Source: Actinomycetota bacterium
GTDB taxonomy: Bacteria; Actinomycetota; Acidimicrobiia; Acidimicrobiales; Acidimicrobilacustridaceae
DNA: 32,626 bases
Assembly: GCA_005787345.1 (NCBI GenBank)
Contig: SYBH01000019.1
Location: 1 to 32,626 of the forward strand
Direction: 5' to 3'
The notes under the pieces: model-generated
Database searches by the model: none
What the model saw: the letters and a program-made list of their open reading frames with translations, nothing else
Told to the model about the DNA's origin: nothing
Shown here: piece by piece, positions 12,395 to 17,363 of the stretch
Layout: each line of letters opens with the position of its first letter
How positions within the stretch are numbered: position 1 is the stretch's first letter
Position numbers and translations under genes: made by a program

Positions 12395-12790
12395 TCAGCG
12401 GAAGAACGTCCACCAAAGGCTAAGGCCGACCGTAATGGCGCTAACGATGAGGCCACCGATTACAACGGGCTTCGAAATTTTGCCATCGGCATCTGCGGGC
12501 AGACGCTTGCGGACATTCTCAAGAAGCTTTCGAGCGAATGGAACATCAGACGCGAGCAACGCAAGGCCGGCAGCGATGGTAATCATGCCTGGACCTGGAA
12601 GTGCCAGCATCAACAAGCCCGCAATGACCACAATCGTCCCAAGAAATACGCGCCCAATACGAATGAGGATGTGCCGTTTCGCTTCGGCGACCGACTCCTC
12701 TCGACGACCCGTTTCGAATTCCGCCTCGATTGCCGCCTTTTCGAATTCCTCAAATCGTTTGCGGCGACCCTGCTGTGAAGAATCATTCAT
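12395..12790 (-). CDS. PGPGW-type small membrane protein
   Basis: A 131-aa protein with a charged N-terminus and two hydrophobic regions: a long one (about 50-80) carrying the signature LPGPGMITIAAGLALLA, and a C-terminal one (about 108-128). This matches the actinobacterial PGPGW transmembrane family, whose function is unknown. The frame is open further upstream, but the ATG at 12790 is chosen: it overlaps the end of the P-type ATPase gene by 8 nt (ATGAATGA), so the two are translationally coupled. It may therefore share the leader control of the ATPase and have a role in cation transport or envelope maintenance (inference). Confidence 0.8.
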   Translation of the reverse strand: MNDSSQQGRRKRFEEFEKAAIEAEFETGRREESVAEAKRHILIRIGRVFLGTIVVIAGLLMLALPGPGMITIAAGLALLASDVPFARKLLENVRKRLPADADGKISKPVVIGGLIVSAITVGLSLWWTFFR

Positions 12791-15569
12791 CGCTTGAATC
12801 CGGTACCGTCGAGCCAGCAACGCGACTGCGGGCAACCATCTTCCAGAGTTCCACCGCCAAGAGCAGCAACAGCGGCGGTACGAAACAGAGTGCCCATTGA
12901 GTGGCTGTAAGCGACGAAGTATCGAAAAGGTTCTTCATCGGCTCGAACACGGTCAGCAAGATTTGCAAAAAGAACACGATCACTACCGACGCGCCGAGTT
13001 TCCAGTTCGTGAATGTATATCTTGAAAAGAGTGACGCAGTTTCAGAACGAGCGTTATACACGTTCACTAACTGTGCGTAGACAAACGCAGTAAAAGCCAT
13101 CGTTGTTGCGACGATGGGCAACTCGCCCGTTGCTAAATCTGGTTCGTATTCGCTGATTGCGTAAAGGTAAACAGCCAAAACCCCAATAGCCGTAACCGAA
13201 CCCTGAAATGCAACCTGACTCAGGCGGCGTCGACTGAGAATTTTTGCATCAGAAGGAACCGGTTTGCGATTCATAAGACCCGGGGCAGGGGCGTCGACAC
13301 CAAGCGAAACCGCTGTCGGTCCATCAGCAATCAAGTTGACCCAAAGCACCTGAATCGGCGAGAAGGGGACATGCTGGCCGAACGCTGAGGCTCCCAGGAT
13401 TGTGGCAATTGCGCCGAATGCGGTCGCTACCTGGAATCGAACAAACTTGAGGATGTTGTCGTAGACGGCTCGACCGCCACGCACTGCCTCAACAATCGTG
13501 GCGAAATTGTCATCGGCGAGAACCATGTCACTGGCTTCTTTGGTGACTTCCGTTCCGGTGATGCCCATTGCCACGCCGATGTCGGCACGTCGCAACGCAG
13601 CGGCGTCGTTCACGCCGTCTCCAGTCATTGCGACGATCTCGCCATTGCTCCGAAGTGCTTCGACGACTCTCACTTTGTGCTCAGGGGACACGCGAGCGCA
13701 TACCGCAATAGCGCCAATCCGAGCAGATAATTCCTCGTCAGACATCGCGTCGAGATCGTCGCCGGTGACAACCTCGCCCTGAATACCCAACTGGTCCGCG
13801 ATAGCACCAGCCGTCAGCGCGTGATCGCCGGTGATCATCTTGACGTCAATTCCCGCGCGATGGCACAGCGCAATCGCATCTCGGGCTTCGGTTCGAGCCG
13901 GGTCAACAATGCCAACAAGTAGTTCAAGACGGAGGTCGCTGATCCAACTTTCTGGATTGGTCACAGTGCCGTTGGCGTCGATGATCTGTGAAGCGGGAAC
14001 CCGGCGTGTGGCGACAGCAAGAACTCGCATGCCTTGGGAAGCGAGTGCATCGTTCTCTGAACGACGGAACCCCCGCGCTGCAGTATCGAGTATCTGTTCC
14101 GAGCTATCAGGTGCAGAGAAGGTGGTTGACATGCCAAGGACAACATCAGGTGCGCCCTTTACGCAGATCAGGACATCGCCGTTCGGTGAGTTTGGATCGG
14201 CTAGGTGGAAGGTGGCCATGAACTTGGCGCCCGAATCGAAGGGCACCTCGGCAAGACGCGGGCGAAGCGCGCGTTCCGTTGGCGCATCGAGCCCAGCCTT
14301 TGCTGCCATGACAACAAGTGCTGCTTCGGTCGGATCACCGATAATTCCCGGCCCATCGGTCGCAGTAGATACAAGAACAGCGTCGGAACACAACGCTGCC
14401 GGTAAAAGTGCATCGGTAGAAAATTGCGGGGTAACAACGTGACCACCCGAAGAGGTGATGGTTCCTTCGGTGCCGTATCCCCCACCACTTACTAACCAAG
14501 CCTCGCCGCCACGAAATGCTTCGCCGGCGGTCATCTGATTCAGCGTGAGTGTGCCAGTTTTGTCTGAGCAAATAACCGAGGTTGATCCAAGCGTCTCGAC
14601 TGAGTGCAAACGCTTCACGATGGCATTTTGCTTTGCCATCTTTGAAATGCCGATTGCCAGTGTGACCGTGACGACGGCAGGAAGACCTTCAGGGATCGCT
14701 GCAACCGCTAGGGCTACGGCTCCTAACAGCGCGTCTTTGAAGTTCTGTCCAATGATCCACTGAATGACGAACACGATGAACGCCGCTGTTCCGGCAATCA
14801 CCGCCAGAGTTTTACTGAGCGAATCGAGTTGACGTTCAAGCGGGGTCTTTGATGGCTTCGCGGAAACAAGCATCTCGGCGACCTTGCCCATTTCGGTGCC
14901 CATGCCTGTGCTGGTGACAACAACTTCGGCTCGGCCACGACTCACAGTGGTGTTCATAAACACCATGCCGAGGCGATCGCCAATCGGCGAACCGACTGAT
15001 GTCAGCGCATCGGCTCGCTTTTCAACCGGAACAGACTCACCCGTCAGACTCGATTCATCTACAGACAAGTTCACTGCGAGCAGCAATCGCCCGTCGGCCG
15101 CTACTCGATCGCCAGCGTCAAGCAAGACGATGTCGCCAGGAACAAGCTCGTCAATCGCCACTTCGTCAGTGACACCATTGCGGCGGACCCGAACCTGAGT
15201 GACCAGCATGCGTTCAAGGGCTGCGAGTGCATTCGATGCCTTCGACTCTTGGGCAAAGCCCATGATGGCATTGACTATGAGGACGATGAAGATGATGACG
15301 AGATCTTTGATATCGCCTAACAAGCCGGCGACAAGACCCGCTGCGGCCAACACATAAACAATTCCGGCGCGGAACTGATCGATGAACACCAGCAACTTTG
15401 AGCGACGAGGTGGCTCAGTGAGCCGGTTAGATCCATGAAGAGCGCGCCGATCAGCAACTTCTGCATGAGAGAGCCCCGTGCTGGCATCGATCCCCAGACG
15501 CTCGACAACTTCATCGCTGGAGAGCGCGCACCAGTCATCGTGTTGCTGTGGGGTCGTATCGAGGGTCAT
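12783..15569 (-). CDS. Cation-transporting P-type ATPase, PMR1/SPCA-like (Ca2+/Mn2+)
   Basis: A 928-aa P2-type ATPase that exports a divalent cation at the expense of ATP. Order: N-terminal cation ATPase domain; actuator with SLTGES; TM4 with PEGLP; phosphorylation motif CSDKTGTLT; ATP-domain MITGDH; hinge TGDGVNDAAALRRAD; C-terminal TM domain. TM6 reads NLIADGPTAVSLGVDAP, like yeast PMR1 and unlike SERCA. TM5 has Ala where SERCA has Asn768 and Glu771. This predicts a single ion site and Ca2+/Mn2+ specificity (inference). The ATG at 15569 is chosen over a TTG one codon upstream because GGAG (15580-15577) lies 7 nt before it. It follows a yybP-ykoY-like leader and is coupled to the PGPGW gene. 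Confidence 0.93.
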   Translation of the reverse strand: MTLDTTPQQHDDWCALSSDEVVERLGIDASTGLSHAEVADRRALHGSNRLTEPPRRSKLLVFIDQFRAGIVYVLAAAGLVAGLLGDIKDLVIIFIVLIVNAIMGFAQESKASNALAALERMLVTQVRVRRNGVTDEVAIDELVPGDIVLLDAGDRVAADGRLLLAVNLSVDESSLTGESVPVEKRADALTSVGSPIGDRLGMVFMNTTVSRGRAEVVVTSTGMGTEMGKVAEMLVSAKPSKTPLERQLDSLSKTLAVIAGTAAFIVFVIQWIIGQNFKDALLGAVALAVAAIPEGLPAVVTVTLAIGISKMAKQNAIVKRLHSVETLGSTSVICSDKTGTLTLNQMTAGEAFRGGEAWLVSGGGYGTEGTITSSGGHVVTPQFSTDALLPAALCSDAVLVSTATDGPGIIGDPTEAALVVMAAKAGLDAPTERALRPRLAEVPFDSGAKFMATFHLADPNSPNGDVLICVKGAPDVVLGMSTTFSAPDSSEQILDTAARGFRRSENDALASQGMRVLAVATRRVPASQIIDANGTVTNPESWISDLRLELLVGIVDPARTEARDAIALCHRAGIDVKMITGDHALTAGAIADQLGIQGEVVTGDDLDAMSDEELSARIGAIAVCARVSPEHKVRVVEALRSNGEIVAMTGDGVNDAAALRRADIGVAMGITGTEVTKEASDMVLADDNFATIVEAVRGGRAVYDNILKFVRFQVATAFGAIATILGASAFGQHVPFSPIQVLWVNLIADGPTAVSLGVDAPAPGLMNRKPVPSDAKILSRRRLSQVAFQGSVTAIGVLAVYLYAISEYEPDLATGELPIVATTMAFTAFVYAQLVNVYNARSETASLFSRYTFTNWKLGASVVIVFFLQILLTVFEPMKNLFDTSSLTATQWALCFVPPLLLLLAVELWKMVARSRVAGSTVPDSSDE

Positions 15570-15770
15570 CAAGAGTCTCCGGTCATGTCAGATTGACGAT
15601 GGGGGAACCGTTGATGGTTCACCGACCGGAGGTCTCTCCCGCTCATCCGCTTTCGAAGATCCGAGGACCAACGAGTTTGTTGCGAATGAACCAGCGGCAC
15701 CGGGAGCTAGGGCTCGAAAGCCGTTGCGCCGTGATGACGACACCGCTGCGATGGGATACTCCCCTCACTG
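15570..15770 (-). promoter_or_regulatory. Candidate yybP-ykoY (Mn2+) riboswitch and translational expression platform
   Basis: Read on the minus strand. The leader has GAGG-GGAGTA (GGGGAGTA at 15764-15757); helix CAGCGGTG (15748-15741) with TGCCGCTG (15699-15692); TCGTCATCAC (15740-15731) facing CGG (15702-15700) across that helix; a further stem TCATTCGC (15689-15682) with GCGGATGA (15650-15643); and AGACCTC (15635-15629), whose CCTC pairs with GAGG (15766-15763) to close P1. These are the hallmark elements of yybP-ykoY aptamers, in order. CTCCGGTC (15631-15624) overlaps P1 and is perfectly complementary to GACCGGAG (15584-15577), which holds the ATPase Shine-Dalgarno. Mn2+-stabilised P1 should free the ribosome site (ON switch). 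Confidence 0.82.
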
Positions 15771-15837
15771 GGCAACAGTATGGCCGCAAATCGCGACGAG
15801 TCATAGTCAGGACGGCCCGACCACGGCGGAGAGGGAA

Positions 15838-16506
15838 TTAGCCGACGAGGACCTTACGGACTGCGTCCTCGCATTCGGCCACGGCCAGAACGAGGACCTC
15901 GTCACCAGCGCCGAGCTTGACATCGCCTCGGGGGAAGATGACCTTGCTGTCGCGCACCACCGCAACGATCGTGGACTCTCGAGGAAGGCCCAGCTTGGCG
16001 ATAGAGACGCCATTGGCAGGCGATGACTCGGCGAGACGAATTTCGGAAAGTCGCGCTGCATCGTTCTCAAAGGTCATGATGCGAACAAGTGAGCCAACCG
16101 TGACCGCTTCTTCAACGAGTGCGGTAAGCAAGTGCGGAGTCGACACCGAAACGTCGACACCCCAGCTTGCATTAAACATCCATTCATTCGAAGGGTTATT
16201 CACTCGAGCAACAACACGCGGCACGCTGAATTCTTGCTTGGCAAGAAGCGAGATGACCAGGTTGTCTTCGTCATCACCGGTTACGGCAACAACAACGTCT
16301 GCTCGATCGGGTTCAGCCTTTGCGAATTCGGAAACTTCACAACCATCGACTGCGAGCCACTTCACGCCTGCGGGTTCACCGTCGGCCTGCGCCTGAGCAA
16401 CGCGAGCGGGATCAACTTCGACAATTAGAACTTCATGACCTGCTTGCTGGAGTTCGGTGGCGATGTAGGTGCCAACGTTTCCGCCGCCTGCAATGACAAC
16501 GCGCAT
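15838..16506 (-). CDS. TrkA/RCK-family K+ regulatory protein (second of pair)
   Basis: A 222-aa cytoplasmic RCK protein, which gates or regulates a K+ transporter of the Trk/Ktr type on nucleotide binding. The N-terminal RCK_N Rossmann domain has AGGGNVG (G7, G9, G12) and E30 at the end of strand 2, which favours NAD(H). The C-terminal RCK_C domain runs from about residue 135. The start at 16506 is set by the start of the Rossmann strand and GGAGG upstream; the frame is open further. It overlaps the stop of the preceding RCK gene by one base (TGATG). The pair resembles ceoB-ceoC of Mycobacterium. No channel gene is in the window. Confidence 0.88.
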   Translation of the reverse strand: MRVVIAGGGNVGTYIATELQQAGHEVLIVEVDPARVAQAQADGEPAGVKWLAVDGCEVSEFAKAEPDRADVVVAVTGDDEDNLVISLLAKQEFSVPRVVARVNNPSNEWMFNASWGVDVSVSTPHLLTALVEEAVTVGSLVRIMTFENDAARLSEIRLAESSPANGVSIAKLGLPRESTIVAVVRDSKVIFPRGDVKLGAGDEVLVLAVAECEDAVRKVLVG

Positions 16507-17177
16507 CAGTGATGACCTCCTTGAGTCGGTGCCGACGCAAGATGGCGATCGAAATCTCCGATGTGATCTCCGTCGATAGCGACCCAAACAACATCGCCCT
16601 CCTGAGCAAGTAAGGCCGCGCTTACCAGCTGCGCAACACCGAGGCGCGTGAGCGCAACGACCCTTGATCGCCCTTCGGACTCGAGTTCAACGAGCGGACG
16701 CCCGGCCCAGGAAACGGGGACTACTCGTTCCACGAGACAAACCCGTGCGCTCGGATCGACCCACTCGACGCCATCGGTATCAGGTTGGATTCGACGAAGG
16801 ACACGCTCGATCGCCCACTGAACCGTAGCGACCGTTGAAATACCAAGTCGTTCGTAGATCGCGGCGCGACGCTGATCGTAAATACGTGCGACGACTCGAT
16901 CGACATGAAAAAACTCTCGGGCGGTACGCGCAATGAGGATGTTGGAATTATCGCCATTGGTAACAGCGGCAAGCGCATCGGCTCGTTCAATGCCAGCAGC
17001 ACGAAGACGTGTTCGATCGAAGCCGACACCAACGATCGTGTCTCCGCTGAAATTTTCTGGCAGTCGACGGAATGCCGTTGTCTTTCGGTCGATCACCGAA
17101 ACGGTGTGACCTTGTTCGACCAATGTGGCGGCAAGGCCAGAACCAACTCGGCCGCATCCAACAACGACGACGTGCAC
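16506..17177 (-). CDS. TrkA/RCK-family K+ regulatory protein (first of pair)
   Basis: A 223-aa RCK protein with the Rossmann motif GCGRVG (G7, G9, G12) and D30 as the nucleotide-ribose ligand, followed by an RCK_C region from about residue 140. The start is a GTG at 17177: GGAGGTGG is placed upstream at a normal distance, and the protein then opens directly with strand 1 (HVVVVGCG). The longer frame upstream has no homologous look. It is coupled to the next RCK gene (TGATG), so the two subunits are probably made together and may form a hetero-oligomeric ring on a Trk-type K+ system encoded elsewhere. It is divergent from zwf. Confidence 0.87.
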   Translation of the reverse strand: MHVVVVGCGRVGSGLAATLVEQGHTVSVIDRKTTAFRRLPENFSGDTIVGVGFDRTRLRAAGIERADALAAVTNGDNSNILIARTAREFFHVDRVVARIYDQRRAAIYERLGISTVATVQWAIERVLRRIQPDTDGVEWVDPSARVCLVERVVPVSWAGRPLVELESEGRSRVVALTRLGVAQLVSAALLAQEGDVVWVAIDGDHIGDFDRHLASAPTQGGHH

Positions 17178-17222
17178 TTCGCACCACCTCCAGATGTCCC
17201 GGCGGACACCGCTCCCGATCCT

Positions 17223-17363
17223 ATGACCGCACAACAGCAACCGAAAGACGAACCCACTCCATTCTCATTCGATTCAGAGTGCGAAAACGCAAAAATTCGC
17301 AGACTCGGTTTGACCCCGGGCTCATCGATAGAAGTTTGGGGCGTCCGCGCGCCGCAGTCCTGA
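17223..17363 (+). CDS. Possible 46-aa ORF with a FeoA-like half motif
   Basis: A short frame in the gap between the RCK pair and zwf. Residues 23-43 (AKIRRLGLTPGSS followed by IEVWGVRAP) look like the RLxxLGLxPGxxVxVxxxAP stretch of FeoA-type SH3-like domains, but the frame stops before the following GDP and second half. There is no Shine-Dalgarno. It could be a remnant, a tiny real protein or chance; I favour caution. Confidence 0.2.
   Translation: MTAQQQPKDEPTPFSFDSECENAKIRRLGLTPGSSIEVWGVRAPQS

Follow-up and report, generated by a model that had tools for sequence, protein, structure and literature searches.

The known yybP-ykoY riboswitches that come closest to the RNA analysed here are the yoaB riboswitch of Lactococcus lactis (PDB 4Y1I), the mntP leader of Escherichia coli and the cg2157 (terC) leader of Corynebacterium glutamicum. 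In the solved members, docking is achieved via a four-way junction (PMC6754395). The nucleotides of the Mn2+ site M_B in L. lactis are U39, C40, A41, U44 and C45 (PMC9190785), and the corresponding site in X. oryzae consists of A48 followed by U49, A50, C51 and U52 (PMC6754395). Helix P1.1 is the switch helix of the L. lactis riboswitch and is stabilised by Mn2+ (PMC11087558). The mntP leader is reported to be a translational riboswitch (PMC11647493), and for the cg2157 leader a transcript was observed by RNA-seq, together with a match of 49.1 bits to an older Rfam model (PMC3890552). The genomic context of the class comprises Mn2+ homeostasis genes (PMC6754395) as well as transporters and tellurium-resistance-type genes (PMC3766115).

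The window, i.e. the whole stretch of 32,626 nt of actinobacterial DNA that was analysed, carries on its minus strand a leader ahead of a P-type ATPase gene (Table 1). Like the yoaB riboswitch, this leader combines an L1 of sequence GGGGAGUA, a 7-nt L3 with an invariant CA, a P1.1 switch helix and a P-type ATPase as target; however, yoaB is built around a four-way junction that includes P2, and its expression platform is a transcription terminator, whereas the window RNA has no P2 and an anti-Shine-Dalgarno (anti-SD) platform. With the mntP leader it shares the order L1, P1.2 (GCC/GGC in mntP), P3, P4 and GAGACC, but the P2, the L3 of sequence ACAUACU and the near-threshold Rfam score of mntP have no counterpart in the window RNA. 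The cg2157 leader, likened here by description, is also actinobacterial and stands ahead of a TerC gene.

Table 1. Features of the riboswitch leader and of the genes it is proposed to control, in window coordinates
Feature	Position	Strand	Basis or remark
Whole aptamer, actinobacterial yybP-ykoY type	15625..15770	(-)	R1 match; RF00080 blank
Putative -10 box TACTGT	15775..15780	(-)	would put the transcription start near 15770
P1 (P1.1) switch helix, 5′ strand GAGG	15763..15766	(-)	partner 15632-15629
L1 loop GGGGAGUA	15757..15764	(-)	invariant in 26/26 sequences of A2; nearly invariant in 88
P1.2, 5′ strand UCCC	15753..15756	(-)	partner 15640-15637
P3, 5′ strand, UCG at its end	15738..15746	(-)	partner 15702-15694
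L3 metal-site loop UCAUCAC	15731..15737	(-)	its second and third bases, C and A, are the counterparts of C40 and A41 in L. lactis
P3b hairpin, CGG and P3 3′ strand	15694..15730	(-)	alignment and covariation
P4 hairpin, long variable tip	15641..15691	(-)	10-bp stem, 15691-15682 with 15650-15641
P1.2, 3′ strand GGGA	15637..15640	(-)	conserved GAGA (15636-15633) comes next
P1 switch helix, 3′ strand CCUC	15629..15632	(-)	bases common to the anti-SD; covariation
Anti-SD CUCCGGUC	15624..15631	(-)	perfect 8-bp complement of 15584-15577
GACCGGAG with Shine-Dalgarno GGAG (15580-15577)	15577..15584	(-)	7 nt before ATG 15569
P2A-type (PMR1/SPCA-like) Ca2+/Mn2+ P-type ATPase, controlled gene	12783..15569	(-)	NCBIfam and structure matches
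PGPGW membrane protein	12395..12790	(-)	PF09656; start overlaps the ATPase stop (ATGAATGA)

A sequence-only reading had assigned this leader to the yybP-ykoY class, with a switch acting on the ribosome-binding site of the ATPase. Direct reading of the minus strand located all the motifs at the positions it had claimed, and P1.2 and P4, absent from its description, are additions to the anatomy. P1 comprises 4 bp (GAGG/CCUC) and closes L1 with GACC on its 3′ side; GGGGAGUA occurs once in the window (15764-15757), against a chance expectation of 0.23. The final three pairs of P3, UCG/CGG, close the 7-nt L3. The full complementarity proposed between CUCCGGUC and GACCGGAG is borne out by a perfect 8-bp match, and the first three anti-SD bases (15631-15629) also belong to the 3′ strand of P1, so that full P1 and full anti-SD are, as had been suggested, mutually exclusive. 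ATG 15569, 7 nt after GGAG, is the most likely start of the ATPase. No clear -35 element was seen ahead of the putative -10 box, but the 88 members include 45 cases of a TANNNT motif beginning 16-19 nt ahead of GGGGAGUA, compared with 0-5 cases at other offsets; with this -10-like box the transcript would putatively begin right at the base of P1, and a start downstream of 15700 is not favoured, given its occurrence in about half of the members. Upstream of the leader are two adjacent TrkA-like genes (potassium uptake regulator; 15838-17240, minus strand), which appear ordinary.

The aptamer alone, folded as a single sequence, is no better than its shuffles (z = -0.9), and the comparative evidence was therefore used. 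A loose, ordered motif pattern is found at 18 places in 61 related genomes versus one for the reversed control pattern, and the element lies immediately upstream of the gene in 27/27 ATPase orthologues (at least 54% identity, intact 5′ end), which makes the leader motif more than a chance arrangement; of the three fetched loci that lack it, two have genes cut off by the contig and the third is a paralogue with 42% identity. The initial alignment (A1), in which MAFFT was given 34 members, had seven rows one base out of register in P3b and was dropped in favour of a 26-sequence subset (A2), which was aligned by MAFFT with no structural information and is the basis of the covariance model R1. In A2, both-side changes occur at 15 of the 26 pairs of the five proposed helices, against 8.0 in shuffles and 4-8 in slid controls. 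An alignment of 88 members raises this to 23/26 pairs with 95% of cells paired, although, having been fitted to a covariance model, it is a less clean test of covariation than A2. Its changes include the P1 pair at column 5 (G-C in 46 and A-U in 40 members), the P1.2 pair at column 15 (U-A in 42, G-C in 17 and C-G in 15), seven of the nine P3 pairs and all four modelled pairs of P4. The compensatory changes among relatives, proposed as a check in the sequence-only reading, are thus present.

R1 matches the window aptamer with 87.1 bits (E = 2.4e-21), the window sequence itself being among its 26 building sequences, and, across 296 actinobacterial genomes, recovers members in 63. Scanning GTDB with an exact pattern places the element throughout Actinobacteria and in a few metagenome-assembled genomes (MAGs) labelled Chloroflexi, Acidobacteria and Symbiobacterium. 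In Blastococcus and in a Modestobacter MAG it occurs twice within a few kb on the same strand (L191, 2901-2991 and 4293-4387; L205, 1209-1302 and 3623-3716). The window's own genome (G000) holds a second R1 match on contig C159 (L091), where the riboswitch-ATPase region shares 90% identity with window positions 14002-17000 along 3 kb. Since this identity extends over its whole 3 kb, the upstream gene included, a paralogue was ruled out, and the copy most likely stems from a sister strain co-assembled in the MAG.

With RF00080 ('Manganese', Rfam 15), a 177-position model with a gathering cut-off of 45 bits, the picture is different. The match expected from the class assignment is absent: the window has none at the gathering score, positions 15550-15850 have none even up to E = 10, and there is none in 18 related loci or in 20 phylum-wide members. 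By the criterion of the sequence-only reading, this absence would on its own overturn the assignment. The cut-off is passed by 0/119 actinobacterial genomes, and ten actinobacterial loci are weakly marked. The E. coli mntP leader (L060, 568-658), a verified riboswitch, reaches only 44.9 bits against the cut-off of 45.0 and is itself lost at the gathering threshold; the RF00080 test is therefore insensitive and its blank uninformative, since what it probes is the model and not a feature that defines the RNA. RF00080 describes the same class; it represents P2, P4 and a P3 that bears the proteobacterial L3, with no P1 pairing in its alignment to mntP. Its P2 and the different L3 probably explain the missed matches. 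A second covariance model, R2, was built from the 88 actinobacterial members without the E. coli sequence and without the loci weakly marked by RF00080. It finds the mntP riboswitch with E = 5e-8, with L1, P1.2, P3, L3, P4 and GAGACC in register, and also recovers five of the ten weakly marked loci (L050-L053 and L056). Because R2 finds mntP in register and the CA of L3 is invariant, the window leader can be firmly filed as a member of the yybP-ykoY class, for which Mn2+ would be the ligand. Covariation, the phylum-wide gene context and the covariance-model match to mntP thus uphold both the class and the P-type ATPase, of P2A type, as its target. The same three lines of evidence (with metal exporters as the gene context) make it highly improbable that the conserved leader hairpins are a protein-binding site or a thermosensor rather than a riboswitch, a possibility to which the empty RF00080 search and the unremarkable aptamer-alone fold lend some weight.

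RNAalifold, run without a given structure, recovers P3, P3b and P4, and in place of P1 and P1.2 draws the local hairpins GGGG/UCCC and GGGA/CCUC, which were rejected as replacements on the covariation at columns 5 and 15. In the window these hairpins, GGGG-AGUA-UCCC (15764-15753) and GGGA-GAGA-CCUC (15640-15629), could compete with P1 and P1.2, and they are possibly part of the metal-free fold.

The main departure from the solved structures concerns the junction. The linker between P1.2 and P3 measures 4-7 nt in 77/88 members, too short for a P2, so that the junction joins three helices and not four; linkers exceeding 10 nt are found in three of the 88 members and fold weakly at best. The four-way junction of P1-P4 is consequently missing from the window RNA and from nearly all members. 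What is new here is that the form lacks P2 and that Rfam 15 does not see it, the kind of riboswitch itself being already known. No description of the P2-less form was found in the open-access literature, subscription papers being outside the search, and for an actinobacterial form the open-access papers gave Corynebacterium annotations only.

In 88/88 members the metal-site loop L3 is 7 nt long and has C and A as its second and third bases. It mostly reads UCANNNC; nine members have ACAUACU or ACACACU and so resemble the proteobacterial type. The adenosine above P3 (A41 in L. lactis, A48 in X. oryzae) is invariant in all 88. In the window, L. lactis U39, C40, A41, U44 and C45 correspond to U, C, A, A and C, i.e. 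position 44, a phosphate contact in L. lactis, is A instead of U.

TerC, P2A ATPases, GDT1 and Na/Ca exchangers are established target types of yybP-ykoY RNAs, and known TerC and GDT1 members export Mn2+. Of the genes downstream of the element in 100 member loci, 39 encode TerC, 29 a P2A ATPase, 11 GDT1/UPF0016 and 4 a Na/Ca exchanger, so that 83/100 elements precede such genes. The ATPase count is biased upwards, some of the loci having been collected by way of that gene; among the phylum-wide R1 matches, which are free of that bias, TerC dominates. In the window, the best NCBIfam model for the ATPase is of PMR1 type (656.7 bits, below the cut-off of 798.3), and the nearest solved structures are human SPCA1, a Ca2+/Mn2+ pump (E about 1e-160), and, also near, a Listeria Ca2+-ATPase. 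Being closest to the PMR1-type model and to SPCA1, the ATPase likely exports Mn2+. The same affinities would suit an RNA that descends from the yybP-ykoY class but has switched to a different ligand, for example Ca2+ or another divalent ion, as would the departure of L3 from the canonical ACAUACU and the missing P2. Such a change is nonetheless improbable: the adenosine that confers Mn2+ selectivity through its N7 is invariant, most members stand ahead of TerC and GDT1 genes, and members with the canonical ACAUACU loop are found within the same alignment.

Other genes also follow the element. The ATG of the PGPGW gene overlaps the ATPase stop, and in one relative (L017, 1495-2096) the element stands directly ahead of a PGPGW gene; on these grounds, translational coupling of PGPGW to the ATPase is plausible. 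PGPGW-like genes are also found after TerC (L081) or after an M50 protease gene (L093, a weak match), and, together with the L017 element, this suggests that PGPGW is part of the Mn response. In four species of the window's genus (L002, 1495-1586; L005; L006; L007), a gene for a fatty acid-CoA ligase (AMP-binding) begins about 30-37 nt after the element, which has an anti-SD-like pairing of its own; such a gene is unexpected for a Mn switch. The gene, complete in L135 (5465-7348), is nearest to the FadD11 model, far below its cut-off. Further unusual downstream genes encode an M50 protease (L010, L093 and L116, the last with an ATPase-like match after the M50 gene), a baeRF family protein (L018) and a TFIIB-type zinc ribbon (L003, L004).

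The leader is very probably a Mn-sensing riboswitch that uncovers a ribosome-binding site at high Mn. In the proposed mechanism, CUCCGGUC (15631-15624) would pair with GACCGGAG (15584-15577) when Mn2+ is absent, so that ribosomes could not reach their binding site ahead of the ATPase gene. In the presence of Mn2+, L1 and L3 (UCAUCAC) would dock around the ion and stabilise P1, which would capture the first three anti-SD bases and free the ribosome site; the ATPase, and via its overlapping start the PGPGW protein, would then be made and excess Mn2+ exported. We infer the ligand, the docking, the direction of control and the export function in this scheme, while the analysis establishes the structure with its covariation, the homology to mntP, the conservation of the anti-SD and the gene context.

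The pairing on which translational control would depend is kept in the relatives. When the region of the P1 3′ strand is paired with the leader downstream of it, the duplex is better than at least 95% of those from dinucleotide shuffles in 55/86 members, and changed yet matching pairs are found as CUCCGAUC with GAUCGGAG (L009, L014), CUUCGGCA with UGCCGAAG (L108) and CUUUCGACUGUC with GACAGUCGAAGG (L127). The fourth base of the P1 3′ strand and its P1 partner change in concert (C opposite G in 46/46, U opposite A in 39/40), and the type of Shine-Dalgarno sequence tracks this fourth base: GAAGG or GAAAGG occurs in 20/40 U leaders versus 5/46 C leaders (Fisher p = 1e-4, uncorrected for relatedness). 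Bases common to P1 and the anti-SD, with their pairing kept in relatives, point to P1 as the element that governs the expression platform. The mechanism that best fits this conserved pairing is the one proposed in the sequence-only reading, translational ON control by Mn2+. Control could alternatively be mainly transcriptional, with Rho-dependent or intrinsic termination in the leader taking the place of a blocked ribosome site, since yoaB uses an intrinsic terminator (PMC9190785) and mntP is reported to be subject to Rho control as well as being a translational riboswitch (PMC11647493). This is unlikely, as the anti-SD hairpin has no trailing U-run (GACCGGAGACUCUUGAUG), its 3′ strand is the Shine-Dalgarno sequence itself, 7 nt before the AUG, and relatives show this arrangement again, built from other base pairs.

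Folding with ViennaRNA gives -90.6 kcal/mol for the anti-SD state versus -75.2 kcal/mol for the aptamer state, a preference of about 15 kcal/mol for OFF. With the aptamer enforced, the Shine-Dalgarno region is still 80% paired, partly via CGGUC/GACCG, metal and tertiary contacts being outside the model. A default-OFF state is thus supported by the predicted energies, but a clean release by Mn2+ is not demonstrated in a model that ignores these contacts. Taken together, a yybP-ykoY Mn riboswitch with a three-helix junction, held OFF by the anti-SD and turned ON by Mn2+ for the ATPase and PGPGW genes, is the best explanation, with a probability of about 0.88; the docking geometry of an RNA without P2 is unproven and counts against it.

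A common natural form without P2 offers a direct test of which parts of the riboswitch are required. We lean towards the view that this three-way-junction branch, present across the phylum, would make the four-way 'paperclip' scaffold unneeded for docking of L1 with L3, and that its control of unexpected genes (fatty acid-CoA ligase, M50 protease, PGPGW and the release-factor-like baeRF) may point to a wider actinobacterial Mn response. Annotation with Rfam 15 overlooks these switches, with 0/119 genomes at its cut-off against 63/296 with a lineage-aware model, and it follows that the actinobacterial Mn2+ regulon is probably under-annotated.
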